From: Romeriopsis navalis LEGE 11480
Lineage (GTDB): Bacteria; Cyanobacteriota; Cyanobacteriia; Leptolyngbyales; Leptolyngbyaceae
NCBI RefSeq assembly: GCF_015207035.1
Contig: NZ_JADEXQ010000020.1
Location: forward strand, 1-64,000
Direction: 5' to 3'
Length of the DNA stretch: 64,000 bases
Of the stretch, positions 17,666 through 33,311 are shown in pieces (position 1 is the stretch's first letter; every line of letters begins with the position of its first letter). Under the pieces are notes generated by a model that saw only the letters and a list, made by a program, of their open reading frames with translations, was not told where the DNA came from and ran no database searches. The position numbers were made by a program, and so were the translations under genes.

Positions 17666-17967
17666 AGTTGTGTGTATTTTGAGGATTGAAAATAGTCACG
17701 GAGTCATATTGTGGTCATTTTAGAGCGGTGCTTAGGGCCTCGCTGAATTATTTATGCGGTCGTGGATATCGTCCACCAGAATTGCAAGCATTGAGTCAAT
17801 CTCACCAGAACCGTATTTTACCTGTAACTTCAAGTAAGATTTGGGCAACTCTGGCAGGCTGGGACAAAAAAGAATGTTTGAACTAGCAAAAGCGTTTTAC
17901 TGTATCCTCTGTTGATAATAGTCACTGCGTGGTGACAAATCAGGGAAGATTAATTATATTCTTTACT
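17666..17967. other. 302-bp intergenic region between thioesterase and TetR genes
   Basis: This region must hold the divergent promoters of the thioesterase gene and the TetR gene at 17968. A 66-codon plus frame (17686-17886) has no recognisable features and I do not call it. No terminator or palindromic operator stood out. Confidence 0.4.
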
Positions 17968-18567
17968 ATGGCAAGAGATCGGGAAGAAACAAAAGCAAAA
18001 ATTCTCCAAGCGGTCGGAAAAGTCCTTGGCACATCTGGATTCCAAGGTCTGGGTGTAAACGCGATCGCCCGTGAAGCGGGGGTTGATAAGGTTTTAATCT
18101 ATCGCTACTTCAAAGATGTGCCCACGCTGCTGAAGACCTTTGCGCAGTCGGGTGATTATGTTGGCTCCCTTGATCGATTATTGACGCAGGCAAGCCCCGA
18201 GCAACTGGCGGACTGGCGGAGTGCGTTGGTCTTGTTAGTGATGGGATATGCCAAAACGCTACAACACAATCCCTTGTCCCAAGAGATTTTTCGTTGGGAG
18301 CTGACGGAGAAAAATGAGCTAACGGAGTCGCTGGCATTAACCCGAGAAAAGATGATTCAAGCGGGATTGGATTGGATGCGTCAGCAGTACCCGGAAGTTG
18401 CGGATTATGATTTAGAGGCAATCACCGCAATTTTGCTATCCAGTGTGACTTATTTGGTATTGCGATCGCGCACCCGCCAAACATTTCTAGATATTGATTT
18501 TTCACAATCCACCGGCTTGATTCAAGTCGAAACTACGATCCGTAAATTCCTAGAATCAATTGAATAG
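17968..18567 (+). CDS. TetR family regulator upstream of the oxygenase operon
   Basis: 199 residues from ATG MARDREETKAKILQ; a GTG at 17929 is possible but unlikely. The DNA-binding part is clear: KILQAVGKVLGTSGFQGL, VNAIAREAGVDKVLIYRYF, KDVPTLLKTFA. The C-terminal domain contains SLALTREKMIQAGLDWMRQQ. It lies 260 bp before the eight-gene oxygenase operon and points the same way, which makes it the best candidate regulator of that operon. No matching palindrome could be identified by eye. The ligand is unknown. Confidence 0.88.
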   Translation: MARDREETKAKILQAVGKVLGTSGFQGLGVNAIAREAGVDKVLIYRYFKDVPTLLKTFAQSGDYVGSLDRLLTQASPEQLADWRSALVLLVMGYAKTLQHNPLSQEIFRWELTEKNELTESLALTREKMIQAGLDWMRQQYPEVADYDLEAITAILLSSVTYLVLRSRTRQTFLDIDFSQSTGLIQVETTIRKFLESIE

Positions 18568-18827: not shown

Positions 18828-19550
18828 ATGAAAATACGGTTTTTGCCGATTGACGACTTGAGTTCGACTGATGTTGACGCAATGTATGCATTGTTAAACA
18901 CTTATTTTTCTGGCGTTTGTGCGGATGTGTTTCAGGCCGACTTGGCGCAGAAGAATTGGGTGTTGCTGTTGCATGATTCTGAAACTAATCAGTTGCAAGG
19001 ATTTACCAGCTTGCTGATTCGCCAGCTTGTATTTGCGGATGAAAAAATTAATGTGGTGTATTCCGGCGACACGATCGTTGATCCAGCCGCTTGGGGGAGT
19101 GCGTCATTACCCAAGGCGTGGGTTTGTGCGATTAATCAACTGCGGCAATGCTATAACCAAGGTCGTTTCTACTGGTTATTAATTTGTTCCGGTTACCGGA
19201 CCTATCGCTTTTTGCCTGTATTCGCTAGAACGTTTTATCCATATTATGGCCAAGCCACCCCCCAGCCGGTGGCGGAACTGATGCATTTTCTCGCGCAGGC
19301 GCAATATCAGGATGCCTATGTTGCGTCCACCGGGATCATCCGACTGGCACATCCGCAACGATTACGCCCTGGGTTCGACGGAATTCCCCAGGGGCGGCTC
19401 AGTGATCCCCATATTCAATTTTTTCGGCAGGTTAATCCAGGGCATGATGCCGGTGATGAATTGGTCTGCTTGGCGGAGATTTGTGAGGATAATCTGACGG
19501 CCGCCGGTCGCCGGATTTGGTCATCAAGTGCTGTATTGACGGGAGTTTAA
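18828..19550 (+). CDS. GNAT-like protein, first gene of the oxygenase operon
   Basis: 240 residues, unrecognised apart from a weak N-acetyltransferase look: an N-terminal strand MKIRFLPIDDLS, then QLQGFTSLLIRQL, VVYSGDTIVDPAAWGSASLP and KAWVCAINQL, followed by FYWLLICSGYRTYRFLPVF. The order fits GNAT strands beta2-beta5, but the acetyl-CoA P-loop is not obvious. It ends 3 bp before the first Rieske gene, so it is cotranscribed with the oxygenases and may acylate their substrate or product. The gene start has no strong ribosome-binding site. Confidence 0.6.
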   Translation: MKIRFLPIDDLSSTDVDAMYALLNTYFSGVCADVFQADLAQKNWVLLLHDSETNQLQGFTSLLIRQLVFADEKINVVYSGDTIVDPAAWGSASLPKAWVCAINQLRQCYNQGRFYWLLICSGYRTYRFLPVFARTFYPYYGQATPQPVAELMHFLAQAQYQDAYVASTGIIRLAHPQRLRPGFDGIPQGRLSDPHIQFFRQVNPGHDAGDELVCLAEICEDNLTAAGRRIWSSSAVLTGV

Positions 19551-19553
19551 TCG

Positions 19554-20624
19554 ATGAATCTTGCCCAGTCGCAACCGGCCCAGCCACAACAAAATCAGCT
19601 GCAGCATCCTGCCAATCCGGCCGAGCCTCAAGCGTCAACCTTTAACCATCCCGATCGCTTTATTCAAGGTTGGTATTGGGTTATGCCATCGCGACCGCTT
19701 AAGTGCGGACAAGTGCAGCCGGTTACGATTCTGGGCCGCGACTTAGCGGTTTATCGGACAGCGGCAGGACAAGTGGCGATCGTCGATGCCTACTGCCCGC
19801 ATATGGGTGCCCATTTAGCTGAGGGATGTGTGGATGATGAGGGATTGCGCTGTTTTTTCCACAACTGGCGCTTTGACTCGCAGGGTGTCTGCACGGATAT
19901 TCCTTATCTTGGTCATGCCTTACCCATTCGGATTACTACTTGGCCAGTTGTTGAACACTATGGTTTGATTTGGGTTTGGACCGGCGATGCGCCGCCGCCA
20001 CCGCCACCGTTTGTGCCGGAACTAGAGAATGTGGTATGGGATGTGGCGTTGGGTAAACCCTTTGTGCATAACTGCCATCCAAATGTGTTGATGGTAAATG
20101 CGATCGATGCCCACCATTTCAATACGGTGCATAATTTCCCGATCGAGATTGTATTTAAGAACGAAGTAGTGAATGAAAGCGCCATTATGTTTAGTAATAC
20201 TACGCGGGGGGGCGATGAATCCTGGCTGGTGCGGTTAATTCAGCCGTTTTACCAACATGAAGGCACTTATAGTATGTGCTATTCCTACGGCAGTACGGGA
20301 ACGGTAACTCTGGGGCCAGATTTTCTGCATTTTTATATTGTGTTTGCTCTGCGGTTAGGCCCTGACGGCACGACTGAGGGACAGCCGATTTTTGTGACCC
20401 AACGACGATCCGGCGTAAGTGGCTGGTTATTCAATCGGGTTGTCCTTTGGCTGACTCAGCAGGTGGGGAACTACTTTGCTAAGGGGGATACGAAAATCTT
20501 CCAGACAATCAAATTTGATCTAAAAACGCCGCTTAAGGCGGATCAGTCAATTTTGCAGTTTATGCATCACGTCGAAGGGCAGCAGGCTTTGCAGTATGGC
20601 AGTTGGGAGGCCGTGACAGCATGA
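19554..20624 (+). CDS. Rieske non-heme iron oxygenase A
   Basis: 356 residues. The Rieske [2Fe-2S] site is C81-P-H83 with C100-F-F-H103 (YCPHMGAHLAEG and LRCFFHNWRFD). The mononuclear iron site is D185-A-H-H188-x4-H193 (AIDAHHFNTVHNF). A Pro-rich insertion (about 146-154) lies just before it. The spacing and the CPHMGAHLAEG wording are like KshA/DAF-36-type oxygenases that act on sterols and other lipids, as well as PrnD-type N-oxygenases. The substrate cannot be told. The gene starts 3 bp after the GNAT-like gene and overlaps the next gene by 4 bp (ATGA). Electron supply is probably from the ferredoxin at 23787. Confidence 0.9.
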   Translation: MNLAQSQPAQPQQNQLQHPANPAEPQASTFNHPDRFIQGWYWVMPSRPLKCGQVQPVTILGRDLAVYRTAAGQVAIVDAYCPHMGAHLAEGCVDDEGLRCFFHNWRFDSQGVCTDIPYLGHALPIRITTWPVVEHYGLIWVWTGDAPPPPPPFVPELENVVWDVALGKPFVHNCHPNVLMVNAIDAHHFNTVHNFPIEIVFKNEVVNESAIMFSNTTRGGDESWLVRLIQPFYQHEGTYSMCYSYGSTGTVTLGPDFLHFYIVFALRLGPDGTTEGQPIFVTQRRSGVSGWLFNRVVLWLTQQVGNYFAKGDTKIFQTIKFDLKTPLKADQSILQFMHHVEGQQALQYGSWEAVTA

Positions 20625-21532
20625 ATCAGACTGGAAAACAGCGGTCGGTGGCAGGTTTAGATCTACCGTTTTCGCCGAATGAGAAGTTACAGCGAATTCT
20701 CCGCAGTGCCTTGGGTACTCCGCATTCAACATGCGATACGGCTGGCTTGCCCTGGACTGCGTCGTATTTTGATCTCGATCGCGTCGATTTGTTTACGCAA
20801 GCGACAGACCCCCAACAGCAGCAAATCCTCCAAATCGTGAATCGAAATTTGCTGGAAGAGGCCTACTTCGTGGAGAAGGCTGGGATGGGCTATATGGCAA
20901 ACATGGTGCAAGTTGCCGAAACCCTAGAGGAGCGGATGCTGTACTCCCTGTTTTGCGCCGATGAGTCACGGCATCTATCGCAAATTCGTGGGTTCTTGAT
21001 GGATGAACCAGAAAAGACTCAAGATCCGTTTTTCCAGCTTTTGGCCGAATTGGCGGAATCTGGCGATCGGAGTGTTTTGCTATTTGTGATTCAAGTGGTT
21101 CTGGAGGGTTGGGGGCTCAGTCACTATCGGCGCTTGGCGAAGCATTGTGCTGTACCAGAACTAGCGTCACTGTTGTTGGGATTTTTGCAAGAAGAATCCC
21201 GTCATCATGCGACTGGTGTCACGCTTTTTCAGGAGATGACCGTGAGTCCTGTGGCAATGGACGCAGTGACGGAAATCCTGACGCGGTTTTTGCAAATGGT
21301 GCAAGTTGGTCCACAGGCTGTTGTGGCGGCGATCGCGCAAACCTTGGGACATTTATCGATGTCACAGAAGGTCACAGTGTTTGAACAACTTGACACCCAA
21401 GTCCATAGTGCTGGTCGTCTGGCCGTATTGCAAAATCTGATGCAGACCGGCGGCGGCGGCGCGATCATCGCCAGGCTGCATGAAAAAGGTGCTTTTGAAC
21501 CGCTACCGGCAACTATCTGTGCCGCTATCTAA
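20621..21532 (+). CDS. Ferritin-like diiron protein
   Basis: 303 residues from the ATG at 20621, whose TGA overlap with the preceding gene fixes the start. It shows the ferritin-like diiron ligand pattern twice: E80/E85 in LLEEAYFVEKAG and E115-S-R-H118 in CADESRHLSQ, then E161 in VVLEGWGLSHY and E191-S-R-H194 in LQEESRHHATG. The E, ExxH, E, ExxH set supports a carboxylate-bridged diiron site. Such proteins act as oxygenases, oxidases or aldehyde deformylating enzymes. No closer relative is recognised. Its place between two oxygenase genes suggests a catalytic rather than storage role. Confidence 0.8.
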   Translation: MNQTGKQRSVAGLDLPFSPNEKLQRILRSALGTPHSTCDTAGLPWTASYFDLDRVDLFTQATDPQQQQILQIVNRNLLEEAYFVEKAGMGYMANMVQVAETLEERMLYSLFCADESRHLSQIRGFLMDEPEKTQDPFFQLLAELAESGDRSVLLFVIQVVLEGWGLSHYRRLAKHCAVPELASLLLGFLQEESRHHATGVTLFQEMTVSPVAMDAVTEILTRFLQMVQVGPQAVVAAIAQTLGHLSMSQKVTVFEQLDTQVHSAGRLAVLQNLMQTGGGGAIIARLHEKGAFEPLPATICAAI

Positions 21533-21541
21533 ACTCAACCT

Positions 21542-22747
21542 ATGGTTACATCACTTTTAGAACATCCGAAAACCCAGAAAAAGCTCCAAATCAACTACCG
21601 TCGTAACCAGGACCAAGATCAAACAGCGGCGATCGATACGGCAACGCGTCAGTTTGATTATGAAGACTGTCGTCACGAATATTGGAATCCAGAGGAATTC
21701 TCGCTGCTTTATGGCACGCCGTTGTGGGAGCAGGCAAGTGCAAGTCAGCGATTGGTGTTGAACCACCTGTATTGGGTGGCTTATTACGCTCAAATTATTT
21801 CCGCAGAAATCGCGACGATCTATTTTAATCAAACCAGTGCAGCGGGGCTATATGCGCTGCCAGATTTCCGCTTGGTTTGCGATACGCTGGATTTAGAGTC
21901 GGCCCAGGAACGCTCACATATCAATGCATTTCAGGTGATTGGCGCGCAGACAGAGCAGGCATTGTTTGGCGATCGACTCTTTAGTTATCCGATGCGTGGA
22001 CCATTTACTGAAACGATGCTGTTTCCAAACTCGAATTGGCTGCAAACGCATTGGAAGAAACTTCAACTTCAGTATTTTGGATTGATTTCAGCGAATAATG
22101 CCTTCTTGGCTTGCCAATATTTTACTGTGCGGGGCTTGCGCACACTGAATGGCAAGCTGGTGCAGCATCAGCTGAGTCAGTACTACCAAAAACATGCTGA
22201 ACCGGATAATGCGCCAATTCCCTCGAAAATTTCCTACTATCACTTCTTGGATGAGAGTTTTCATTTCAATAGCTCAACGGTGATTTCCCAAGATGTGATT
22301 CATTGTTTGAATAAACCCACGAAGTTAGAGGCCTTTGTGGCAAATTTGGGGATTCGGGGTTGTCAGCAAGATCATTATCATTTCTCGGCGGCGATCAATG
22401 GGATCTTTTGGTATGACCCAGCGCTTTATGAGACGGTTTATCGCTTGCTGCGATCGTCCATATTCAACATGGATGATGTCGCCGCAAAAAATATGATGCA
22501 GCAGTGCTTTACGACAGAATCTGATGGATTGCATCGCAGTTTCCAAACTCATCAGGAGGCGATGGCTTCCTACAGGGCGTATATCGCGAAGCTCGACTAT
22601 GTGTGGCCCAGTAACCATGAGATGACTGTGATGTCGGGCAATTCGATCAAGCAATATTTGCAACGACAACAGCGGTCATGGGCGAAGTTCTCACAGCGAT
22701 TGCCATCAGAACTAAAATCAAATTATCAGCCTGTGCTGCAAGGATAG
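21542..22747 (+). CDS. AurF-like diiron oxygenase candidate
   Basis: 401 residues. Possible diiron ligands follow the AurF (p-aminobenzoate N-oxygenase) spacing: E89 in ISAEIATIYF, E123-R-S-H126 in QERSHINAF, and H234-x3-E238-x2-H241 in YYHFLDESFHFN. The last has exactly AurF's H-x3-E-x2-H spacing. However, residues 161-219 contain no glutamate, so the ligand corresponding to AurF Glu196 appears to be missing. The N-terminal 60 residues and the C-terminal 130 residues match nothing I recognise. It lies 9 bp after the ferritin-like gene and 8 bp before the second Rieske gene. N-oxygenation or desaturation is possible; the reaction is not proven. Confidence 0.65.
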   Translation: MVTSLLEHPKTQKKLQINYRRNQDQDQTAAIDTATRQFDYEDCRHEYWNPEEFSLLYGTPLWEQASASQRLVLNHLYWVAYYAQIISAEIATIYFNQTSAAGLYALPDFRLVCDTLDLESAQERSHINAFQVIGAQTEQALFGDRLFSYPMRGPFTETMLFPNSNWLQTHWKKLQLQYFGLISANNAFLACQYFTVRGLRTLNGKLVQHQLSQYYQKHAEPDNAPIPSKISYYHFLDESFHFNSSTVISQDVIHCLNKPTKLEAFVANLGIRGCQQDHYHFSAAINGIFWYDPALYETVYRLLRSSIFNMDDVAAKNMMQQCFTTESDGLHRSFQTHQEAMASYRAYIAKLDYVWPSNHEMTVMSGNSIKQYLQRQQRSWAKFSQRLPSELKSNYQPVLQG

Positions 22748-22755
22748 GTGAAACC

Positions 22756-23790
22756 ATGAATACAACAGTCGATCCCAAGCTCACTCAACCGATTTTCAAT
22801 CAGGCGAACGTCGTCACTAAAGGTTGGTACGTGGGATGCCGGAGTGCGGAACTGCCAATTGGTAAAGCCAAATCGCTGGATCTTTGTGGCCAGCGTATTG
22901 TGTTATATCGCGGTGCTGATGCGGTGGTGCGAGCTTTAGATGCTTACTGTCCGCACCTGGGGACTGACCTGGGCTTGGGCCGCGTCGATGGTAATCACAT
23001 CCGCTGTTTTTTTCATCATTGGGCTTTTGATCCATCGGGTGAGTGCCAGGATATTCCCTGTGGGGCAAAGATTCCCAGCAATGCTAACGTTCGTGCTTAT
23101 GCAACGGATGAAAAGTATGGCTTGATTTGGATTTATCCCGATCGCACCGCGCCAACGGGTGTAGCGGAGTTTGACGAACTGCGCGATCGCGAATTAGTCA
23201 TGCATTACGATACACCACTGGAGCGGGGTTGCCACCATCATATCTGCATGATGAATGGGATTGATGCCCAGCATTTGCAGACGGTGCATGGGTTGTCGAT
23301 CGATATGCAGTTGGATTTGCAGGCCGATCCGTCAGCGGGATTAATCGACTTCACAATGTCTGGTGCGGTGCCGGACACGACGGCGAAAGAGCGATTGATT
23401 AAATGGTTTCTTGGTGAACAGTATTGTTATTCCATGCGTTATGCCTACGGGTGTTTGGGCTTACTCACGATGATGAAAGGGGTGAAGTGGGTGCCGCCGC
23501 TGCATATGCTCTATGCCTATATGCCGATCGCGGGTGGTCAGCGGACGCGAATTCTACCGATTTATGTCACGGCGAAACGCACTGGAATCTTTGGCTGGCT
23601 CACTGCGCAATTCTTGCTAGTGCTGACTCGTCTGGCTTACTACTTCCTCCGCGATGAAGATGGCCAGGTGTACGACAATATTCGCTTTGCGCCGAATGCT
23701 TTGCTGGCGATCGATGCACCGCTGGTGCGCTATATGCAATATGTGAATCAACTAGAGCCGTCTTGTTGGTCGCAGGGAGAGGCATTATGA
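22756..23790 (+). CDS. Rieske non-heme iron oxygenase B
   Basis: 344 residues from the ATG at 22756 (MNTTVDPKLTQPIF); the open frame extends further upstream into the preceding gene but is not used. Rieske ligands are C65-P-H67 and C84-F-F-H87 (YCPHLGTDLGLG, IRCFFHHWAFD). Mononuclear iron ligands are D170-A-Q-H173-x4-H178 (NGIDAQHLQTVHGL). It is related to oxygenase A in this operon (shared CFFH and D-A-x-H patterns), but the two are clearly diverged. Its end overlaps the ferredoxin gene by 4 bp, so the two are translationally coupled. This makes the ferredoxin its likeliest electron donor. Confidence 0.9.
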   Translation: MNTTVDPKLTQPIFNQANVVTKGWYVGCRSAELPIGKAKSLDLCGQRIVLYRGADAVVRALDAYCPHLGTDLGLGRVDGNHIRCFFHHWAFDPSGECQDIPCGAKIPSNANVRAYATDEKYGLIWIYPDRTAPTGVAEFDELRDRELVMHYDTPLERGCHHHICMMNGIDAQHLQTVHGLSIDMQLDLQADPSAGLIDFTMSGAVPDTTAKERLIKWFLGEQYCYSMRYAYGCLGLLTMMKGVKWVPPLHMLYAYMPIAGGQRTRILPIYVTAKRTGIFGWLTAQFLLVLTRLAYYFLRDEDGQVYDNIRFAPNALLAIDAPLVRYMQYVNQLEPSCWSQGEAL

Positions 23791-24080
23791 CCCTGTGCCG
23801 CATTCACTTTCCTGGGACGCAATTTGACGATATGGAATTGCCTCCACATCAACCCTTAGCCGAAGCACTCACGGTGCAAAATTCGCCGGTGTTATTTGGC
23901 TGTCGGACGGGTTTGTGTGGAACTTGTGTGGTGCGAGCCGAAGGTTGTGTGACACCACCGACAGCGGATGAACAGGAGATTTTGGAACTGTATGCGCCGG
24001 ATGAGGCAACGGCCCGATTGGCTTGTCAGTTGGATGTGACTGGTGATCTCGCGCTCTGTAAGTTTGAGGTGGGCGCGTGA
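23787..24080 (+). CDS. [2Fe-2S] ferredoxin
   Basis: 97 residues from the ATG at 23787; the open frame before it is read-through from the preceding gene. The plant-type cluster motif is C39-x4-C44-x2-C47 (GCRTGLCGTC) with the distal C80 in RLACQLDV. It is coupled to a Rieske gene on each side (ATGA at 23787, GTGA at 24077), which indicates stoichiometric production. It probably passes electrons to the three Rieske enzymes and perhaps to the diiron proteins. No reductase gene is present in the operon, so a general reductase such as FNR would be needed. Confidence 0.92.
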   Translation: MTLCRIHFPGTQFDDMELPPHQPLAEALTVQNSPVLFGCRTGLCGTCVVRAEGCVTPPTADEQEILELYAPDEATARLACQLDVTGDLALCKFEVGA

Positions 24081-25111
24081 AGCTGGAGGACTTTTGGTAT
24101 GTTGTGGCCTTAAGCAAACGGCTCAAACCGCATCAGGTGATTGCACGATCGGTGTTGGGTGAATGGCTAGCGATCTTTCGGGGGCCGGATGGTCAGGCTG
24201 TGGCACTGCCCGATCGGTGTATGCATCGCAATAGTCGTTTATCCACTGGGGCTGTCCGACAAGGGCAACTACATTGTCCCTATCATGGCTGGGTGTATGA
24301 TGCGCAGGGCCAAGTGGTGGATGTGCCATCGGAGGGTGAGTTTTTTCAGCGTTATCTCAAACAGCAACAGACCCGCTGTGTGAAACGCTATGACGTTCGT
24401 GAGCACGATGGTTATGTTTATGTGCGATTAAATTCTATGCCGACGGAATCTGTAGCGCCTTTTGTCATGCCGCACTACGGTGAGGCTGGTTGGGAGACGG
24501 TAAGAGTAATCAATCGGTTTGCGAATACCGTAACAAACTGCGCCGAGAATTTTATTGATATTCCCCATACGGTGTCGGTGCATCCGGGGGTATTTCGATC
24601 GCCCCGGCGGCAGCAATTGGAGATGCAGGTCGATCGGGTGAATGGCTCCGTCGTCGCGACCTATGCCCAGGAAACCGATAATCTTGGCTGGTATCGAGCT
24701 TTCTTGAATCCTGATGGTAAAGAGATTCGACATATCGATCGTTACTTTATGCCGAATGTAACTTCGGTGGAATATGACTTGGGGCACCATCGGCAATGCT
24801 TCATTACCAGTCAGTCGGTTCCTGAGACGGAGAATTCGACTTTGGTGTATACCGATGTGACTTATAACTACGGCCTTTGGAATAAGCTGGCACGACCGTT
24901 TGTATGGTGGACAGCGCAGCATATTATTGGCCAAGATGTGGCGATTCTAAAGGTGCAGGGAGAGACGATCACCAAATACGGTGAGCAGTTCTCGAATACG
25001 CCAGCGGATACGATTCATGTGTTTGTTGAGTCGATTTGGCGGGCATTAGAGCGGGGTGAAGATCCGCGTTTGTTGCCGGAGAAGTCTGTGCATATCAAGT
25101 TTTGGGTTTAG
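24077..25111 (+). CDS. Rieske non-heme iron oxygenase C (VanA-like)
   Basis: 344 residues with a GTG start at 24077 overlapping the ferredoxin stop. Rieske ligands are C48-M-H50 and C67-P-Y-H70 (DRCMHRNSRLSTG, LHCPYHGWVYD). The iron site is D-I-P-H-x4-H in ENFIDIPHTVSVHPG. The CPYHGW wording and the short N-terminus resemble vanillate O-demethylase/phenoxybenzoate-type oxygenases, so it is of a different subgroup from A and B. A demethylation or hydroxylation step is plausible. It is followed after 9 bp by the membrane hydroxylase gene. Confidence 0.9.
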   Translation: MKLEDFWYVVALSKRLKPHQVIARSVLGEWLAIFRGPDGQAVALPDRCMHRNSRLSTGAVRQGQLHCPYHGWVYDAQGQVVDVPSEGEFFQRYLKQQQTRCVKRYDVREHDGYVYVRLNSMPTESVAPFVMPHYGEAGWETVRVINRFANTVTNCAENFIDIPHTVSVHPGVFRSPRRQQLEMQVDRVNGSVVATYAQETDNLGWYRAFLNPDGKEIRHIDRYFMPNVTSVEYDLGHHRQCFITSQSVPETENSTLVYTDVTYNYGLWNKLARPFVWWTAQHIIGQDVAILKVQGETITKYGEQFSNTPADTIHVFVESIWRALERGEDPRLLPEKSVHIKFWV

Positions 25112-25120
25112 GAGTGCAGG

Positions 25121-25864
25121 ATGTTGCTTGTATTTCCAGTGTTTGCGGTTCTGATCATTGCGACGTTTTGGGGCGATCGGGGTTTGACGCAGCTGCGCCA
25201 GAAAAGTTTTGAGGCGTGGGTGCTTGATTTATTGGGATTAGTTGTACAGGGGGTGTTAATTCCGATTCTGCAAGTATTAGTGGTGGCGCGTTTGTATGAA
25301 TGGTTTGTGCCAGAGTTGCGTGGGATTTGGCATTTGCCGGGGTATTTAGCGTTTGGGTTAAACTTCGTCGCAGTCGATTATCTCTACTATTGGAATCACC
25401 GTTTGCTCCATACTGTAGGGCTTTGGCCGATGCATCAGGTGCATCATTCGGTGACGGCGATGGATGTGTTGGGGACTTCGCGTAATACGTTGTGGAGTAG
25501 TTTGCTGATTGTGTATCTCTGGGTGAATGGCTTGTTGGTTTATTTACTCGATGATCCGCAGTGGTATTTGGTGGGGATGAGTCTGACTTCGGGGTTGGAT
25601 TTGTGGCGACATAGTCGGTTTGTGGTGACTGGAAGGTGGGGGTTATGGTGTTTGTCGCCGTGGTTGAATTTGCCGCAGGATCACCATTGGCATCATGGTG
25701 GGGGGATTGATAATTGTAATTTTGGGGCGAATTTTAAACTCTGGGATCAGCTGCATGGGACGTATCGTGATGGTGCAGATTTACCACAGCTCTTGGGTGT
25801 AGCGGTGGATTTATCGTTGGTTCAGCAGTTGCTCATGCCGTTTCGATTTAATTTTAAGGATTGA
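25121..25864 (+). CDS. Membrane fatty-acid hydroxylase / sterol-desaturase family protein
   Basis: 247 residues with four or so membrane helices and the family's histidine boxes: H93-R-L-L-H97, H105-Q-V-H-H109 and H188-H-W-H-H192, with further His at 164 and 212 and Asp86 in NFVAVDYLYYWNH. These residues bind a diiron centre at the membrane surface in hydroxylases and desaturases of lipids, sterols and carotenoids. It is the last gene of the operon. It suggests the pathway's substrate or product is lipophilic, or is anchored in the membrane. Confidence 0.9.
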   Translation: MLLVFPVFAVLIIATFWGDRGLTQLRQKSFEAWVLDLLGLVVQGVLIPILQVLVVARLYEWFVPELRGIWHLPGYLAFGLNFVAVDYLYYWNHRLLHTVGLWPMHQVHHSVTAMDVLGTSRNTLWSSLLIVYLWVNGLLVYLLDDPQWYLVGMSLTSGLDLWRHSRFVVTGRWGLWCLSPWLNLPQDHHWHHGGGIDNCNFGANFKLWDQLHGTYRDGADLPQLLGVAVDLSLVQQLLMPFRFNFKD

Positions 25865-25972: not shown

Positions 25973-25989
25973 AGATTCCTGAAAAAAAC

Positions 25990-26523
25990 GTGGGTGATAC
26001 AAAGTCAAAAATATTGGATGTCGCGGAGCAATTAATCCAAACCAAAGGATTTAATGGCTTTAGCTATCTTGATTTAGCCGATGCCATTGGCATCAAAAAC
26101 TCAAGTATCCATTACCACTTCAAAGCTAAAGCTGACCTTGCTTTAGCCCTAGTGGAACGCCTTCACGAGAGACATCTCGTTGTCTTTGAAGCGTTGGACC
26201 AAGATCTCGATTCTCCACCCCAGCGTTTGCAAGCCTTAGCCGATCACTTTCAAACCTATATTCAGGGCGAAAAGTTCTGTATGTGTGGAATGATGGCGGC
26301 GGAATTGCAATCCGTTAGTCCAGCTGTAAGAAGTCGCTTGATTGCCTATTTCAAGGATCTTCGAGCCTGGCTAACGAAACAGTTTGTGGCCATGGGAGAG
26401 GAGGATGCTGAGGAGCGGGCACTCCGCTTTGTCAGTACTGCAGAAGGCTCTTTGTTGCTTGCAAGACTTGAGGGTGATCCTCAAATTTTTGCCCAGGCAT
26501 TAAAAGCATTCATCCCAGACTGA
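25990..26523 (+). CDS. TetR family repressor of the detoxification island
   Basis: 177 residues, GTG start (MGDTKSKILDVAEQL). The helix-turn-helix is clear: FSYLDLADAIGIKNSSIHYHF, with KAKADLALALVERLHE after it. The C-terminal TetR_C domain holds a Cys pair (KFCMCGMMAAELQ, about residues 97-101) that could sense electrophiles or oxidants, as in NemR-type regulators. It ends with LRFVSTAEGSLLLARLEGDP. Five copies of its presumed operator lie in the next 5 kb before enzyme genes and one before itself. It is therefore the likely master regulator of those genes. Confidence 0.9.
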   Translation: MGDTKSKILDVAEQLIQTKGFNGFSYLDLADAIGIKNSSIHYHFKAKADLALALVERLHERHLVVFEALDQDLDSPPQRLQALADHFQTYIQGEKFCMCGMMAAELQSVSPAVRSRLIAYFKDLRAWLTKQFVAMGEEDAEERALRFVSTAEGSLLLARLEGDPQIFAQALKAFIPD

Positions 26524-26530
26524 TATTTTT

Positions 26531-26560
26531 TTGGCTTGATAATCTACATACATGTAGGTC
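26531..26560 (+). promoter_or_regulatory. Operator 2 with conserved promoter
   Basis: TTGGCT (26531-26536, preceded by a T-tract) and TAGGTC (26555-26560) are separated by 18 bp. The palindrome CTACATACATGTAG (26544-26557) fills the spacer and overlaps the presumed -10. Binding of the repressor here would block RNA polymerase. The site is 19 bp after the tetR stop and serves the alcohol dehydrogenase gene. Confidence 0.75.
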
Positions 26561-26610
26561 AATTTTAGAAATGCTTCGTTAAGTATGGAGTTTCATCTCT
26601 AAACAAATCC

Positions 26611-26648
26611 CAAAGGAGACTAAAGCAATGCCAATTCCTGACTCGTAG
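26611..26648 (+). pseudogene. Leader and start of a lost gene (six-codon remnant)
   Basis: CAAAGGAGACTAAAGCAATG at 26611-26630 is almost the same ribosome-binding site and start as that of the first SnoaL-like gene (28746-28767). Here, though, the frame reads only MPIPDS and then TAG. This looks like the 5' end of a gene whose body was lost, with the dehydrogenase gene now following. It could also be a short leader peptide. Confidence 0.5.
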
Positions 26649-26716
26649 CTCGTTGATTCACTGGCGAGATAACGCATTTCACTTGAAAACAACATCACTT
26701 AATTCAACGTTAAATT

Positions 26717-27802
26717 ATGCTAGCCACTTACTATCACGATCGCTCAGAGATTCGCGTCGGCAACGTGCCAGAACCGACAATACTCAGCGATACAGACGCC
26801 ATCGTTCGCGTCACCCTCGCCGGGATTTGTGGTGCCGACTTCGACTTTATTAACAACGGTCCTGAAATGGGTGTGCCCCAGGGCATGCGTATGGGACATG
26901 AGTTTGTGGGTATCGTTGAAGCTGTCGGGAAAGCGGTTCATTCCGTTAAAGTTGGCGATCGTGTCGTTGCCTCAGCGATGTTTGTTGACGGTGTATGTCA
27001 CCATTGCAAACGCGATCTCCCCTCAGCTTGCGAACATGGCGGTCTGTTTGGCTCTCCCCTTTTCGTAGAGCACGGCGGCAGTGATATTCAAGGGGGCCAA
27101 TCTGAATTTGTGCGCGTGCCCTTTGCCAACGGGTCCCTCTTCAAACTACCTGACAGCTTTACGTCGGGTTCAGAAGACCACAGAGCGCTACCGCTAGCCG
27201 ATAATTTTGCCACGGGATATCATGGCGCGTTGAACTCAAATATTCTCCCTGGCGAAACCGTTGTCGTGATCGGTGACGGCGCGGTGGGACAGAGCGCTGT
27301 GATGGCAGCAGCAAAGCTCTTTGATCCTGAGCAGGTTATCCATGTGGGCCGACACGATAGCCGACTGGCATTTTCTAAGCAAAAAAGTGGCGCGACCCAC
27401 ACTGTAAATGGCAAGACCCAAGACCCAGTCGAGTATGTGAAGAGCCTGACGAAGGGTTACGGCGCGATGTCGATTATTGACACCGTTGGCAATAATGAAT
27501 CCACTGGGCAAGCCTTGGCCATGGCCCATGCGGGTGGCAAGTTGAGCGTGCTTGGGTTTGGGCATCTTTATGCCCCTGTAGATCAACCCTACTCTCAGGC
27601 TCTCTTTAGAAACCTGACCATTCATACAGGCGTGGTGAATGTGGCTAGCTATATGAAGATGCTGCTTCCGCTGGTCGAAAGCGGGCGTATTGATCCAAGT
27701 GTGATCTTTACGGATACTTTGCCGTTGGCAGAGGCTAAGCGTGGCTATGACTTAATGATGAGTCGGTCTGCGGGGACAGTCAAAGTTGCGCTTAAGCCCT
27801 AA
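26717..27802 (+). CDS. Zinc-dependent alcohol dehydrogenase (MDR superfamily)
   Basis: 361 residues. Catalytic zinc ligands are placed at Cys in LAGICGADFD and His-Glu in RMGHEFVG. The structural zinc lobe has the Cys cluster of GVCHHCKRDLPSACEHG. The Rossmann motif is VVVIGDGAVGQSAV (about 178-191). The family oxidises alcohols or reduces aldehydes/quinones with NAD(P)H. It is controlled by operator 2. The start has little ribosome-binding site; an intact leader with a good one lies 90 bp upstream but leads to a six-codon ORF. Confidence 0.9.
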   Translation: MLATYYHDRSEIRVGNVPEPTILSDTDAIVRVTLAGICGADFDFINNGPEMGVPQGMRMGHEFVGIVEAVGKAVHSVKVGDRVVASAMFVDGVCHHCKRDLPSACEHGGLFGSPLFVEHGGSDIQGGQSEFVRVPFANGSLFKLPDSFTSGSEDHRALPLADNFATGYHGALNSNILPGETVVVIGDGAVGQSAVMAAAKLFDPEQVIHVGRHDSRLAFSKQKSGATHTVNGKTQDPVEYVKSLTKGYGAMSIIDTVGNNESTGQALAMAHAGGKLSVLGFGHLYAPVDQPYSQALFRNLTIHTGVVNVASYMKMLLPLVESGRIDPSVIFTDTLPLAEAKRGYDLMMSRSAGTVKVALKP

Positions 27803-27840
27803 GTCGCAACCAGCAGGTTGTCGAAAGCTGACATGTTTTT

Positions 27841-27871
27841 TTGACCCAGCCATTTACATACATGTAGGTCA
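27841..27871 (+). promoter_or_regulatory. Operator 3 with conserved promoter
   Basis: TTGACC (27841-27846) after a run of T, an 18-bp spacer and TAGGTC (27865-27870). The spacer carries TACATACATGTA (27855-27866). Same geometry as operators 2, 4 and 6. It lies about 115 bp before the azoreductase gene. Confidence 0.78.
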
Positions 27872-27987
27872 TTTGAAACGACCTCTGAAAGGTCAGCTCA
27901 CAGTTTTTATCACCACTTTTCTGCAAGAGAGCAGAAACCAGAAAGAAATCGGATTCGCACCTATTTACTTAGATTTGAGGTTACATC

Positions 27988-28617
27988 ATGAAGAAACTGC
28001 TTTATATCAAGTGTTCACCGCGAGGCGCTGGTTCCAAGACAACCCAAATTGCTGAGGCATTTTTACCAGCTTACAAAGAGAAGTATCCCGATGCAGAGAT
28101 TGAGGAACTCGACCTTTTTAAGCTCAAACTACCTGAATTTGACGGCGATGCTGCTGCTGCAAAGATGTCTTTCTTCGGTGGACCTGATATGGACAGCAAG
28201 CAGCAGACTCTCTACGATGAATTGGTTCGGCTCTTCAACCAGTTCAACTCCGCTGACGATTATTTGTTCAGCATTCCAATGTGGAACTTCGGTGTGCCCT
28301 GGAAGCTGAAGCTCTACATCGATCTGTTGAGCATGCCCGGCACCCTTTTCGGCTTCGATCCAGCAGTTGGCTATAACGGGCTGCTTCAGAATAAGCGTGC
28401 GACCGCAGTGTATTCGGCAGCCATTTACAGTTCTGGTGCATCAAAGCAATTTGGGACTGACCACGTATCAACCCATTTCACCGACTGGTTAAACTTCGCT
28501 GGTATCGATGATGTTGCGACGGTATGGTACCAACGCTACAAGATGGTCAGTGACGACGAGGCGAGTGCAGCCTTGGATAAGGCGCGGGAAGAGACTAGGG
28601 TAGCGGCACGGCGATAA
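27988..28617 (+). CDS. azoR: FMN-dependent NADH-azoreductase / quinone reductase
   Basis: 209 residues with a flavodoxin-like fold. The N-terminal MKKLLYIKCSPRGAGSKTTQIA forms the FMN phosphate loop, and SIPMWNFGVPWKLKLYID (about 93-110) matches the diagnostic P-M-[YW]-N-F-x-[IV]-P motif. These enzymes make two-electron reductions of azo dyes and quinones, which avoids radical formation. Under operator 3, consistent with defence against quinones and electrophiles. Length is normal (about 200). Confidence 0.9.
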   Translation: MKKLLYIKCSPRGAGSKTTQIAEAFLPAYKEKYPDAEIEELDLFKLKLPEFDGDAAAAKMSFFGGPDMDSKQQTLYDELVRLFNQFNSADDYLFSIPMWNFGVPWKLKLYIDLLSMPGTLFGFDPAVGYNGLLQNKRATAVYSAAIYSSGASKQFGTDHVSTHFTDWLNFAGIDDVATVWYQRYKMVSDDEASAALDKAREETRVAARR

Positions 28618-28666
28618 GTACAGCATTCACTGGAAGCAATTAACCAGAGTCGGAAACCATATTTTT

Positions 28667-28697
28667 TTGACCCATTTACTTACATACATGTAGGTCA
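28667..28697 (+). promoter_or_regulatory. Operator 4 with conserved promoter
   Basis: TTGACC (28667-28672) after seven T, 18-bp spacer, TAGGTC (28691-28696), with TACATACATGTA (28681-28692) in between. It precedes the first SnoaL-like gene by about 70 bp. Confidence 0.78.
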
Positions 28698-28764
28698 ATC
28701 TTGATCCTTCTTCTGTTAAGCGTTGAACTCAAAATCTAATCCACCCCCAAAGGAGACTAAAACA

Positions 28765-29184
28765 ATGTCAACTACAACAACACTAAACGTAACCCCTAAA
28801 ACAGCCGCTGATGAAGCACAGAGCTTTGCAGAATACAAAGCTGTTGAAGTTGCCTTGCAGCCTTATATCGAGTCAGCTAAAACAGGTGACGGTGCGCTTT
28901 GCCGGACGGCCTTTTATGACCATGCTCATATTGTTGGCTCAGTCAACGGCACTTTCTATGACTTGGATGCTGATACGTTTCAAGGGGCAGTGAGTGAAAC
29001 AGGCGCATCCCCAGACGTTCAGTCCCACATTGCCTGGATTGATATTTCTGGACCTGCCGCCGCCGCAAAGGTTGAATTTATCAATTGGGCTGGTTTTCGC
29101 TACACCGATTTCTTTGTCCTCTATAAGCAGGATGGACAGTGGAAAATCAGCGGCAAGGTCTACGACTCTCACGCCCAAAACTAA
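28765..29184 (+). CDS. SnoaL/NTF2-like (lumazine-binding 2 type) protein, copy 1
   Basis: 139 residues from the ATG at 28765, chosen for the AGGAG 10 bases upstream. The cone-shaped NTF2-like fold is suggested by ALQPYIESAKTGDGALCRTA and FYDHAHIVGSVNGTFYDLD through KVEFINWAGFRYTDFFVLY to GQWKISGKVYD. The family is often annotated as putative lumazine-binding or NTF2-like; its function is unknown. It is followed 35 bp later by the AhpD-like gene, presumably in one transcript. A near-identical copy lies at 30045. Confidence 0.85.
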   Translation: MSTTTTLNVTPKTAADEAQSFAEYKAVEVALQPYIESAKTGDGALCRTAFYDHAHIVGSVNGTFYDLDADTFQGAVSETGASPDVQSHIAWIDISGPAAAAKVEFINWAGFRYTDFFVLYKQDGQWKISGKVYDSHAQN

Positions 29185-29219
29185 GCTTCAACCCCAATAC
29201 TTAAATAAGGAGAAACACG

Positions 29220-29786
29220 ATGACGAATTTTACTTTGCACACTGAAGAAACAGCTCCCGTAAAAAGCACAACGATCCTGCAAGGCGCTAAGAAAGCCTAC
29301 GGCTTTGTGCCGAACCTGATGGCTGCTTTGGCAGAATCCCCGGCGGCACTCGAAGCTTATGTTACGCTTTCTGGCATCTTTGACAAGAGTGACTTTACCC
29401 CGGCAGAGCGTCAAATTGTTTTGATGACCAACAACCGTCTAAACGGTTGCACATACTGCATGGCTGCACATTCAACCATTTCCAAAATGCAGAAAATTCC
29501 AGCTGATGTCATTGAGACATTGCGTAACGGCACATCATTTACCGATCCAAAGCTTGAAGCGCTGCGCGTATTCTCAACTCAAGTCAATCAGAATCGTGGT
29601 GTTCTCAGTGATGCTGATATAGATGCGTTCATTGCGGCAGGTTACAGCCAGGCTAACGTCCTCGAAGTTATTTTGGGAACGGGCTTAAAGGTTCTATCTA
29701 ATTATTCGAACCACGTTGTTAATACACCTGTTGATGACGCATTCCAATCAGATAAGTGGTCTGCAGATATACCTGTGGCTGCATAG
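29220..29786 (+). CDS. AhpD-like / carboxymuconolactone decarboxylase family protein
   Basis: 188 residues. The redox motif C-T-Y-C-M-A-A-H in RLNGCTYCMAAHSTISK (about 75-90), with Glu in AERQIVL before it, matches the AhpD active site (E...CxxC...H). Related proteins reduce peroxidases or remove peroxides through the Cys pair. Ribosome-binding site AGGAG 10 bases upstream. Probably cotranscribed with SnoaL copy 1 from operator 4. Confidence 0.9.
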   Translation: MTNFTLHTEETAPVKSTTILQGAKKAYGFVPNLMAALAESPAALEAYVTLSGIFDKSDFTPAERQIVLMTNNRLNGCTYCMAAHSTISKMQKIPADVIETLRNGTSFTDPKLEALRVFSTQVNQNRGVLSDADIDAFIAAGYSQANVLEVILGTGLKVLSNYSNHVVNTPVDDAFQSDKWSADIPVAA

Positions 29787-29833
29787 CAAGTCAGAGCTTA
29801 AACAATCCCATGCCTTCTACCTCAGGAACTTGG

Positions 29834-29935
29834 GACAGAGCAGTCAGCTTTATTAGCCCATCAGAAGGCTCATTGTTGCTGGCAAAAATTGAGAATAGTC
29901 CTAAATTTTTCGGCCAGACTCTGAATAATTTATCC
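29834..29935 (+). pseudogene. Decayed 3' end of a second tetR gene
   Basis: Translation in the frame containing DRAVSFISPSEGSLLLAKIE and then NSPKFFGQTLNNLSTKD matches the last 34 residues of the intact repressor at 25990 (LRFVSTAEGSLLLARLEGDP...), with about half the positions identical. There is no helix-turn-helix upstream. As with the intact gene, an operator copy follows closely (26 bp here, 19 bp there). It is therefore a remnant of a duplicated tetR-operator unit. Confidence 0.75.
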
Positions 29936-29961
29936 ACAAAAGATGTTTTGCTTCTAGAACA

Positions 29962-29980
29962 TTTACATACATGTAGGTCA
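29962..29980 (+). promoter_or_regulatory. Operator 5
   Basis: TTTACATACATGTAGGTCA contains TACATACATGTA (29964-29975) and TAGGTC. The -35 is weaker (TTGCTT at 29948, 20-bp spacing) than in the other copies. It precedes SnoaL copy 2 by about 65 bp. Confidence 0.75.
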
Positions 29981-30044
29981 GCTTTAGTGTGTGCTGTGTT
30001 GAAAGGTCATCTCAACCTTACCTAAACCCAAGGAAACTAAGATA

Positions 30045-30464
30045 ATGTCAACTAAAACGAAACTAGACGTAACCGTTAGAACTGCTGCTGATGAAGCCTA
30101 TAGCTTTTCAGAATATAAGTCTGTAGAGGCGGCATTACAGCCTTACATTGAGTCAGCTAAGACAGGCGATGGTGCGCTTTGCCGGACGGCCTTTTATGAC
30201 CACGCTCATATTGTTGGCTCAGTCAACGGCACTTTTTATGATTTGGATGCTGATACGTTTCAAGGGGTGGTGAGTGAAACAGGCGCATCCCCAGATGTTC
30301 AGTCTCACATTGCCTGGATTGATATTTCTGGACCTGCTGCCGCCGCAAAGGTTGAATTTATCAATTGGGCTGGGTTCCGCTACACCGATTTCTTTGTGCT
30401 CTACAAGCAAGATGGTCAGTGGAAAATCAGCGGCAAGGTCTACGACTCTCACGCCCAGAACTAA
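30045..30464 (+). CDS. SnoaL/NTF2-like protein, copy 2
   Basis: 139 residues, identical to the copy at 28765 at 129 positions. Nine of the ten differences lie within the first 29 residues and one at residue 75. The last 64 residues are the same. Such a sharp boundary points to gene conversion or a very recent duplication with selection on the N-terminus. It stands alone after operator 5 and before operator 6, without an AhpD-like partner. Ribosome-binding site AAGGAA upstream. Confidence 0.85.
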   Translation: MSTKTKLDVTVRTAADEAYSFSEYKSVEAALQPYIESAKTGDGALCRTAFYDHAHIVGSVNGTFYDLDADTFQGVVSETGASPDVQSHIAWIDISGPAAAAKVEFINWAGFRYTDFFVLYKQDGQWKISGKVYDSHAQN

Positions 30465-30505
30465 TGATGTCTGCACAGATAATAGTCAGTACCTAACTGA
30501 CTTTT

Positions 30506-30536
30506 TTGGCTCAATCATCAACATACATGTAGGTCA
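30506..30536 (+). promoter_or_regulatory. Operator 6 with conserved promoter
   Basis: TTGGCT (30506-30511) after a T-tract, 18-bp spacer, TAGGTC (30530-30535), with the somewhat shorter palindrome ACATACATGT (30521-30530). It precedes the peroxiredoxin-like gene by about 110 bp. Confidence 0.75.
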
Positions 30537-30643
30537 GTTAAATACTTGTGCCTTGCTGAAAACTGACCTCAAGCCAACCCTATCTCGAAGCTGATTCTTG
30601 GTCAGCGCCTAACAACACCTTTGATTGATTTGGAGAAATCACC

Positions 30644-31192
30644 ATGACTGCAATTGCAACTGCAACAACTTCGGCGATTCGCCTGGTGCCTGGTAACGTT
30701 GTCCCCGCCCTAACGGTTGATACGCTGTCGGGAAATGCTTGGAGTCTTGCTGAGCAAACGCCTCGCAACTACACGATGGTGGTTTTTTATCGCGGTTTAC
30801 ACTGCCCCCTTTGTGCTGATTATTTACAGCAGCTAACCAGTAAGCTAAGTCAGTTCAACGAGCTCGGTATTGAAGTCATTGCCATCAGTGGTGATAGTCG
30901 TGAAAAGGCTGCTACCTCAGCTGAAACCTGGGGTGTTAATGACTTGACGCTGGGCTATGGCCTCACCCGTGAAGCAATGCAGCAGTGGGGGCTTTACGTT
31001 TCTAAGGGGGCGTTTGACAATGAGCCCAACTATTTCAATGAACCTGGACTCTTTTTGATTGGCCCCGATGGCCTGCTCTCTTTCGCCAGCGTCAATAACG
31101 CTCCGTATGGTCGCACTGACCTAGATACATTGCTCCGAGGATTGGACTTTGTTTTGAACCACAACTACCCCGTGCGTGGAACTGAAGTCTAA
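30644..31192 (+). CDS. Peroxiredoxin-like (AhpC/TSA superfamily) protein
   Basis: 182 residues with a thioredoxin fold. After VVFYRGLHCPLCADYLQQL comes the C-x-x-C active site (CPLC, about residues 55-58), then GIEVIAISGDSREKA, typical of the AhpC/TSA fold. Members are annotated as peroxiredoxin-like; the peroxidatic Cys is likely the first of the pair. It is under operator 6. Together with the AhpD-like protein it could form a peroxide-reducing pair. Confidence 0.87.
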   Translation: MTAIATATTSAIRLVPGNVVPALTVDTLSGNAWSLAEQTPRNYTMVVFYRGLHCPLCADYLQQLTSKLSQFNELGIEVIAISGDSREKAATSAETWGVNDLTLGYGLTREAMQQWGLYVSKGAFDNEPNYFNEPGLFLIGPDGLLSFASVNNAPYGRTDLDTLLRGLDFVLNHNYPVRGTEV

Positions 31193-31319
31193 AAGTATGG
31201 GGTCGCAGTGCTGCTCCACGTTATTCAGTCTGAAATCAGGAGATCTGCGAGGGGCTGATTAAAGCTTCGCTATGGCCTCGCGCTATGTCCCCATTAACCC
31301 TAGTAAACCAGGAAATATC

Positions 31320-31964
31320 ATGATTGACTTTTACACCGCTGGTACACCCAATGGTTACAAGCCTGCCATCATGCTCGAAGAGATCGGGTTGCCCTATTCG
31401 ATTCATAAAATTGATATTGGCAAAGGAGAGCAATTCTCGCCTGAGTATGTGGAGATTAACCCCAACAGCAAAATTCCAGCCATCATCGATCGCGAAACAG
31501 GTATCTCCATATTTGAATCCGGTGCGGTGCTGATTTACCTAGCTGAAAAGACGGGTAAGCTTCTGCCAACTGAGCCCGCTGAACGAGCCCGGGTGATGGG
31601 TTGGCTGATGTTTCAAATGGCCAGTGTCGGTCCTATGTTTGGCCAGTTTGGACATTTTCGCAACGCAGCGCCCGAGAAGCTCCCCTACGCAATTGAGCGC
31701 TATCAAAAAGAAGCAACGCGGCTCTTAAAAGTTTTGGAGCATCAGCTAGCCAAGACAACTTATATGGCTGGAGACTACTCTATCGCTGATATTGCGACTT
31801 ATCCTTGGGTCTTTGGAGCAACCGGTCCCTATTTGGAGGTCTCGTTAGATGACTGTCCTAACGTTCAACGCTGGATGGAGGTGATGCAGGCTCGCCCAGC
31901 AGTTAAGACTGGCATGTCACTTTTCTCGCCTGAGTTTGATAGCAAATTAGGCGCGATCGCATAG
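31320..31964 (+). CDS. Glutathione S-transferase family protein
   Basis: 214 residues from ATG 31320 (MIDFYTAGTPNGYKPAIMLE); an upstream in-frame ATG at 31272 is less likely. N-terminal thioredoxin-like domain with NPNSKIPAIID and ESGAVLIYLAEKTGKLLP (the cis-Pro and glutathione-binding E-S pair). The C-terminal helical domain holds MAGDYSIADIATYPWV. It resembles the YfcG/YghU/Ure2-type GSTs, which have disulfide-bond reductase activity. No operator copy lies directly ahead, so it is probably read from the upstream transcript or a separate promoter. Confidence 0.88.
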   Translation: MIDFYTAGTPNGYKPAIMLEEIGLPYSIHKIDIGKGEQFSPEYVEINPNSKIPAIIDRETGISIFESGAVLIYLAEKTGKLLPTEPAERARVMGWLMFQMASVGPMFGQFGHFRNAAPEKLPYAIERYQKEATRLLKVLEHQLAKTTYMAGDYSIADIATYPWVFGATGPYLEVSLDDCPNVQRWMEVMQARPAVKTGMSLFSPEFDSKLGAIA

Positions 31965-32128
31965 TGTGAAAAGCGTTTCTGCTCTTAAGGAGAGGAAACA
32001 CCTAAAAGGACTGAAAACAACAAAGATTTTGACCATTAAGTGATGCTTTGAACAGGCAAGAAGACTTGCCGCAGGCATCTCGCCTCAGATATTGAGCCCC
32101 CGTTAGAAAACCAAACCAGAGAATTACA

Positions 32129-32872: not shown

Positions 32873-32876
32873 GATT

Positions 32877-33311
32877 ATGACCACTCCAATTCCTGCAACT
32901 GTTCTACCCAAAAGAATTCTCTACACGATGATCCGTGTGAGCAATCTTGAAGACTCGATCGCCTTTTACCAAGAGATGTTGGGCATCTCCGAACTGGGAC
33001 GTGAAACCTTCCCAGAGGCTAAATTTACAGCAGTCTTTATGGGCTATGGCGATCGCACAACCCACCCCGTTATAGAGCTGACCTACAACTGGGGCGACAA
33101 CAGCTATGAACATGGCACTCGCTATGGCAATCTCTCCCTCGCTGTTAATGATGTCTATGCACTGGAAGCCCATCTCAAAGAGAGGGGCGTTGAAATTTTG
33201 CGTCCAGCCGGGGTTTTACCCATTGCCTCAACCGAAACAGGCACAAAGCATACACTCGCTTTTATCGCTGATCCGGACGGTTACCGGGTTGAACTGATGC
33301 AATCTATTTGA
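32877..33311 (+). CDS. Glyoxalase I-like (VOC) protein lacking two metal-ligand histidines
   Basis: 144 residues from ATG 32877 (MTTPIPATVLPK). It closely follows the glyoxalase I pattern: TMIRVSNLEDSIAFYQEMLG, FMGYGDR, VIELTYNWG, HGTRYGNLSLAVND and DPDGYRVELMQ. Against E. coli GloA, the first metal ligand His (LLHTML) is Tyr here (ILYTMI) and the second (YGHIAL) is Asn (YGNLSL). The two Glu ligands (VIELTYN and VELMQ) remain. It is therefore unlikely to be an ordinary Ni/Zn glyoxalase I. Tightly linked to the SDR gene (4 bp). Confidence 0.85.
   Translation: MTTPIPATVLPKRILYTMIRVSNLEDSIAFYQEMLGISELGRETFPEAKFTAVFMGYGDRTTHPVIELTYNWGDNSYEHGTRYGNLSLAVNDVYALEAHLKERGVEILRPAGVLPIASTETGTKHTLAFIADPDGYRVELMQSI

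Follow-up and report, generated by a model that had tools for sequence, protein, structure and literature searches.

A conserved ten-gene cyanobacterial cluster combining Rieske oxygenases, a CylC/NocO-type dimetal halogenase homolog, and a GH3-type amido synthetase: a candidate pathway to an oxidized acyl amide or aminolipid

Eight genes are packed onto one strand of contig NZ_JADEXQ010000020.1 of Romeriopsis navalis LEGE 11480 at positions 18828-25864 of the 64,000-nucleotide stretch analyzed here (the window), and they raise the question of which pathway, and what kind of product, such a run of largely oxidative enzymes serves. A preliminary description, made from the DNA alone, had taken it for a compact operon without scaffold-building genes, dedicated to a single pathway that oxidizes a probably lipophilic substrate. 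Its compactness was borne out, as successive gaps are 3, −4, 9, 8, −4, −4, and 9 bp. Comparison with related genomes provided strong evidence that the pathway comprises not eight but ten genes, a conclusion in which our confidence is much higher than in the chemistry proposed below. The absence of scaffold-building genes consequently holds inside the run, but not for the whole set, as genes 9 and 10 are found farther along the same window, at 33549-35805 (Table 1).

The evidence for one pathway is drawn from gene order, co-occurrence, and divergence. Named genomes were scanned for homologs of gene 4, the CylC/NocO-type member of the set; 151 were found, and the best 80 of these, which were kept, came mostly from cyanobacteria, with one planctomycete and one gammaproteobacterial metagenome-assembled genome among them. 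Gene order across cyanobacterial genomes, a check that the preliminary description had proposed, was counted in those 51 loci for which 20 kb or more of sequence was available. Two main arrangements of the ten-gene set emerged, with genes in the order 5-1-2-3-4-6-7-8-9-10 in 16/51 loci and 1-2-3-4-5-6-7-8-9-10 in 13/51 (together 29/51); gene 5 precedes gene 1 in about half of the relatives, and the core genes are all on one strand in 49 of the 51 loci. Co-occurrence was determined in 390 cyanobacterial genomes of the same class, one per species, with the gene 4 clade delimited by E values below 1e-130. This clade is present in 27/390 genomes, and genes 1, 9, and 10 each occur in 27/27 of these and in 2/363 of the rest (Fisher about 1e-39 for each of the three against gene 4, without correction for shared ancestry). 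The association persists even where the genes are unlinked: in genome G334, genes 1 to 7 and genes 8 to 10 are 3 Mb apart, and in G237, genes 1 to 4 are located at 1.93 Mb, genes 8 and 9 at 1.57 Mb, and gene 10 at 0.98 Mb. Pairwise divergences of genes 2 to 8 across 48 loci gave Spearman coefficients of 0.66 to 0.90. Because the order is conserved (in about 80 loci), co-occurrence is near perfect and extends to unlinked genes, and divergence is correlated, the ten genes are best regarded as one pathway, in agreement with the earlier proposal of a single dedicated one.

The locus is a member of an already catalogued class. Eusebio et al. (2021) described 36 "Rieske-containing" clusters, each with one CylC homolog beside two to four Rieske proteins and usually also with a member of the sterol desaturase family, and could assign no product to any of them; these clusters represent the most common CylC context in cyanobacteria and were missed by CORASON, the standard tool for cluster mining (PMC8406957). 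In the window, three Rieske genes and a single gene 4 are adjacent, with gene 8 as the sterol desaturase family protein, and the preliminary statement that no cyanobacterial pathway with this set had been described was therefore mistaken, the class having been recorded as an orphan. Shared with it are the three Rieske proteins, the single CylC homolog, the sterol-desaturase-family protein, acyl transferases, the host class, and the orphan product; new here are the GH3 and hexapeptide-repeat proteins (genes 10 and 9) as core partners, displaced in this genome by an interposed block. Neither GH3 nor hexapeptide proteins are mentioned in the main text of that study (PMC8406957), and no paper linking the cluster to a product was found in the open-licence literature. 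A "PriA-containing" variant with the remaining functions dispersed is known from Synechocystis (PMC8406957). Genome G237, which we infer to be a Synechocystis, is alike, with genes 1 to 4 beside a GGDEF/EAL protein, which adjoins gene 4 as in the published description of that variant, and genes 8, 9, and 10 elsewhere, whereas the genes are clustered here.

For gene 9 (c7) and gene 10 (c8) alike, the copies in the window are the only matches in this genome. Gene 9 directly follows gene 8 in relatives, whereas here the two are 7.7 kb apart, and genes 9 and 10 may form a separate transcription unit in this genome; scans for consensus promoters and terminators gave matches no more frequent than chance. 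The interposed block, composed of detoxification-type genes, was considered as a part of the pathway and rejected, as it is unlinked to the cluster in relatives, its TetR gene (tetR2) being matched in one locus only (33%). A palindrome (AATCTACATACA/TGTAGATAGATT) at 25954-25977, just 5′ of this TetR gene, is a likely operator candidate for the block. The TetR genes on either side of the eight-gene run, the detoxification block downstream, and the frequent role of Rieske oxygenases in catabolism would also suit a catabolic or detoxification operon for breaking down a lipophilic compound from the environment that is sensed by the TetR proteins. We consider such a function improbable, since neither the TetR genes nor the block are conserved with the cluster, and an ATP-consuming GH3 ligase together with two acyltransferases indicates synthesis. 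Gene 10 scores above the Pfam cut-offs for GH3, GH3_M, and GH3_C and thus belongs to the GH3 superfamily; because it is part of the set, the cluster includes an acid-activating, bond-forming enzyme. Its sole NCBIfam match is the lyso-ornithine-lipid synthetase OlsH (NF052613), of which it is not a member, with 28.3 bits against an equivalog cut-off of 620. OlsH forms N-acyl ornithine from free fatty acids in planctomycete ornithine lipid synthesis and is, like gene 10, a bacterial GH3 acyl-acid amido synthetase (PMC12493201); gene 10 differs from it in this low score, in that no OlsI was recognized alongside, and in the accompanying oxidative enzymes.

Gene 4, a single-copy gene in this genome, had initially been called AurF-like, with N-oxygenation as a possible activity. 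Its Pfam AurF match is below threshold (E = 0.003, 17.3 bits against a cut-off of 29.6), and its profile gave no match to PDB sequences. Dimetal halogenases feature nine active-site residues, seven of them within the motifs QExxH and HxxDExxH, the Gln of which replaces AurF D135 (PMC12101540). Eight of the nine NocO residues are kept in gene 4: E89 (the first Glu ligand), Q122-E-x-x-H126, and H234-x-x-D237-E238-x-x-H241 are invariant in 81/81 homologs. The first coordination sphere is complete with its six ligands, and the diagnostic Q122 is likewise retained. The seven-ligand site of AurF, with 3 His and 4 carboxylates, is absent, as the positions of D135 and of the ligand E196 are both occupied by Gln. 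As judged from these residues, gene 4 is a relative of the CylC/NocO dimetal halogenases and not of the N-oxygenases; because the AurF assignment falls on the active site, the proposal of N-oxygenation loses its support. That gene 4 might nevertheless act as an AurF-like N-oxygenase, yielding an N-oxide, oxime, or nitro product, is suggested by the weak Pfam match, but with the AurF ligand set missing and halogenases as the nearest characterized relatives, we attach very little probability to it. Compared with CylC/NocO halogenases (PMC12101540), gene 4 shares both motifs, the first Glu ligand, and the low AurF similarity, whereas it is about 65 residues shorter than the other CylC types compared, and neither an acyl carrier protein nor a fatty acyl-AMP ligase was seen in its neighborhood.

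The ninth NocO residue, the second-sphere E252, is where gene 4 departs from the known enzymes: Gln208 takes its place in 81/81 Rieske-type homologs, while Glu is present in 5/5 other aligned CylC-type proteins. The NocO variant E252A retains iron but loses chlorination, and Gln at this position has been reported for a small subset of CylC homologs (PMC12101540); in view of these two observations, the gene 4 clade may chlorinate or may catalyze another reaction. It could also be that the pathway is the same but that, through the clade-wide exchange of Glu for Gln on a CylC-type scaffold, gene 4 acts as a hydroxylase, a desaturase, or some other oxidant of C-H bonds, and that the product is never halogenated. 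We give this alternative real weight, though less than even. The E252A result and the contrast between Gln in 81/81 homologs and Glu in the five other CylC types speak for it, as does genome G190, in which genes 9, 3, and 1 are adjacent (locus L111, 8108-10509) and neither gene 4 of this clade nor a GH3 match is present; this locus is read here as a halogenase-free variant, judged by its gene content, and the pathway logic would then not always require halogenation. Against it stand the Gln-bearing CylC homologs already reported and the intact first sphere with Q122. Further CylC-like proteins were also seen. One subfamily, of 412 residues and 35% identical to gene 4, is found in G119 (locus L110, 8166-9401) and in G147; in L110 a Fer2-type match (34%) adjoins the gene, and the 17 kb that were read contain none of the other pathway genes. 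CylC-type homologs of 28 to 34% identity are located on four cyanobacterial plasmids (NC_014533.1, AP017376.1, NZ_LR882964.1, and NZ_CP117772.1).

Metal-site conservation in the remaining oxidative proteins was scored over 59 to 81 homologs per family. The Rieske cluster ligands, the D-x2-H-x4-H motif, and the distal Asp are at least 95% conserved in all three oxygenase families. The same level applies to the four Cys in gene 6, to each of the three His boxes in gene 8, and to the diiron-ligand residues in genes 3 and 4. Because of this conservation, genes 2 to 8 can be taken as working enzymes and chance motifs can be ruled out; their active sites are under selection. Together with the Pfam matches, this confirmed the set of iron and oxidative enzymes as real. 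The preliminary description had used the labels "KshA/DAF-36-like" and "sterol-desaturase-type". Gene 2 is nearest to KshA in the PDB (6e-28), and genes 2 and 5 have their top NCBIfam scores to the 4β-methylsterol monooxygenase SdmA (NF052579; 83, more precisely 82.9, and 64 bits, respectively, against a cut-off of 600). Membership of gene 2 in either family was rejected, as it also remains below the gathering score for KshA_C (PF19298; 18.9 against 23.3), whereas gene 8 does belong to the FA_hydroxylase superfamily. The nearest NCBIfam family to gene 8 is the ornithine lipid hydroxylase OlsE (NF052566), and membership was likewise rejected at 53 bits against a cut-off of 475. The best scores of genes 2 and 5 to SdmA, and of gene 2 to KshA structures, would favor a cyclic terpenoid or steroid acid as the substrate, with the KshA/SdmA-like Rieske enzymes and the sterol-desaturase-type protein oxidizing its rings; we regard this as unlikely, given scores so far below the cut-offs and recurrent neighbors that include no genes for terpenes or sterols. 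Gene 7 resembles SxtT and SxtDIOX, yet NdmA and DdmC score similarly or better and further saxitoxin genes were not seen, so that a saxitoxin-type assignment was dropped. Short additional matches to Rieske 3 lie 5′ of the complete copy in several loci of the Nostoc type (L044, 13275-13442; L048, 13290-13421; L057, 11541-11726; L070, 13245-13412), lying beside inserted genes and looking like gene remnants.

For genes 1 and 3, predicted structures were used. The profile of gene 1 gave no match to PDB sequences, and an alignment of 24 homologs contains 44 invariant columns. The AlphaFold model computed from these homologs has a mean predicted local distance difference test (pLDDT) value of 90.7, and Foldseek matched it to GNAT acyltransferases (E = 9e-6, probability 1.00, template modeling score about 0.4-0.5). 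Gene 1 is thus predicted to adopt a GNAT fold, in accordance with its earlier description as GNAT-like. The gene 3 model (pLDDT 88.5) is a helical bundle nearest to SSO1313, AurF, aldehyde-deformylating oxygenase, and ribonucleotide reductase R2 (Foldseek E values of 2e-3 or worse, probability 1.00), and its Pfam match, Ferritin_2, is below the cut-off. Its four-helix bundle carries the complete ligand pattern E, ExxH, E, ExxH, and gene 3 thus fits a class I ferritin-like diiron oxidase.

Table 1. Pathway genes and neighboring features, with positions in the window
Feature	Coordinates	Strand	Description
TetR gene, upstream	17929..18567		Flanks the eight-gene run
Gene 1	18828..19550	+	GNAT-fold protein, 240 aa; no Pfam match, not even sub-threshold
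Gene 2	19554..20624	+	Rieske oxygenase 1, KshA/SdmA-like; C81 H83 C100 H103; D185 H188 H193 D330; Pfam Rieske 7e-21
Gene 3	20621..21532	+	Ferritin-like diiron protein; E80, E85, E115, H118, E162, E192, H195 (numbering from ATG 20621)
Gene 4	21542..22747	+	CylC/NocO-type dimetal halogenase homolog; E89, Q122 E123 H126, H234 D237 E238 H241, Q208
Gene 5	22756..23790	+	Rieske oxygenase 2; C65 H67 C84 H87; D170 H173 H178 D320; Pfam Rieske
Gene 6	23787..24080	+	Plant-type [2Fe-2S] ferredoxin; C39 C44 C47 C80; Pfam Fer2 3.6e-8
Gene 7	24077..25111	+	Rieske oxygenase 3, VanA/NdmA-like; C48 H50 C67 H70; D161 H164 H169 D287; Pfam Rieske
Gene 8	25121..25864	+	FA_hydroxylase-superfamily membrane His-box protein; HxxxH, HxxHH, HxxHH; Pfam 8e-24
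Interposed block	25990..33311	+	TetR (25990-26523), zinc alcohol dehydrogenase (Zn-ADH), flavin mononucleotide (FMN) reductase, two SnoaL-like, CMD, AhpC/TSA, GST, SDR, glyoxalase
Gene 9 (c7)	33549..34187	+	Hexapeptide-repeat (left-handed beta-helix) acyltransferase, hydrophobic N-terminus
Gene 10 (c8)	34171..35805	+	GH3-type acyl-acid amido synthetase

Taken as one pathway, the ten genes may constitute a specialized route to an acyl amide or aminolipid that is oxidized and possibly chlorinated (or chlorinated cryptically), a reading of the chemistry that we hold at even confidence. The substrate would be a free fatty acid or a similar lipophilic carboxylic acid, used without a carrier protein. 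Genes 2, 5, and 7 (Rieske oxygenases), gene 3 (ferritin-like diiron enzyme), and gene 8 (membrane His-box hydroxylase) would oxidize several of its positions, with electrons delivered via the dedicated [2Fe-2S] ferredoxin from a housekeeping reductase. Gene 4 would functionalize an unactivated C-H bond, either chlorinating it or catalyzing a reaction that Gln208 has changed, and the GH3 enzyme would activate the carboxylate with ATP and condense it with an amine. Acyl or acetyl groups would be attached by the GNAT-fold and hexapeptide proteins. An acyl amide or aminolipid from a multiply oxidized acid is suggested because gene 10 has an OlsH-type match, gene 8 is nearest to OlsE, and some clusters include an Mpo1-like protein and an amidohydrolase. 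No carrier-protein or fatty acyl-AMP ligase families were present among the recurrent neighbors examined, in agreement with the published survey (PMC8406957), and OlsH may serve as a model, by analogy, for carrier-free acyl-amide synthesis. The lipophilic substrate of the preliminary description is plausible on the strength of the FA_hydroxylase-family protein and of a GH3 enzyme with a lyso-ornithine-lipid synthetase as its sole NCBIfam match. Several points weigh against the proposal as a whole. Physical separation makes co-transcription of genes 9 and 10 with genes 1 to 8 doubtful here, the Fisher values carry no correction for phylogeny, and gene 4 has Gln where NocO requires a second-sphere Glu. 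The amine and the acid are not fixed by homology, because the scores of genes 10 and 8 lie so far below the OlsH and OlsE cut-offs. Plant GH3 enzymes, moreover, act on non-lipid acids.

Relatives elsewhere vary in gene content. The Mpo1-like protein, of the 2-hydroxy fatty acid dioxygenase family, and the amidohydrolase are fused in the gammaproteobacterial locus L098 (17810-20133), in which this fusion and a PAP2-family membrane protein lie beside gene 1. A search of the R. navalis genome for the amidohydrolase (family c10) gave no match, an empty answer that is weak evidence. In G196, a mini-cluster (locus L112, 7258-10735) comprises a gene 1 homolog, an FA_desaturase, and a GH3 enzyme; it lacks Rieske and halogenase genes and possibly represents the minimal logic of the pathway. 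Among characterized systems, the ngl cluster for nostochloroside in Nostoc punctiforme, which was found via halide depletion, likewise has a CylC homolog acting on a lipid, whereas it is based on a polyketide synthase (PKS) with a carrier protein and lacks Rieske and GH3 proteins (PMC10849952).

Tentatively, and at less than even confidence, a Gln-variant dimetal halogenase acting on a carrier-free lipid, in a pathway closed by GH3-type amide formation, would define a new class of oxidized or halogenated aminolipids that is made without PKS, nonribosomal peptide synthetase, or acyl carrier protein and is widespread in cyanobacteria. The tight co-travel of the gene set makes a direct hunt for the product possible, and the GH3 amide synthetase and the two acyl-transfer proteins, as near-constant partners, narrow the chemical search to a concrete target, an acyl amide, and supply an entry enzyme that can be purified. 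With Gln throughout the clade and the rest of the halogenase site intact, the choice of halogenation over another kind of C-H oxidation can be tested directly; a dimetal halogenase that needs no carrier would also be useful as a biocatalyst.

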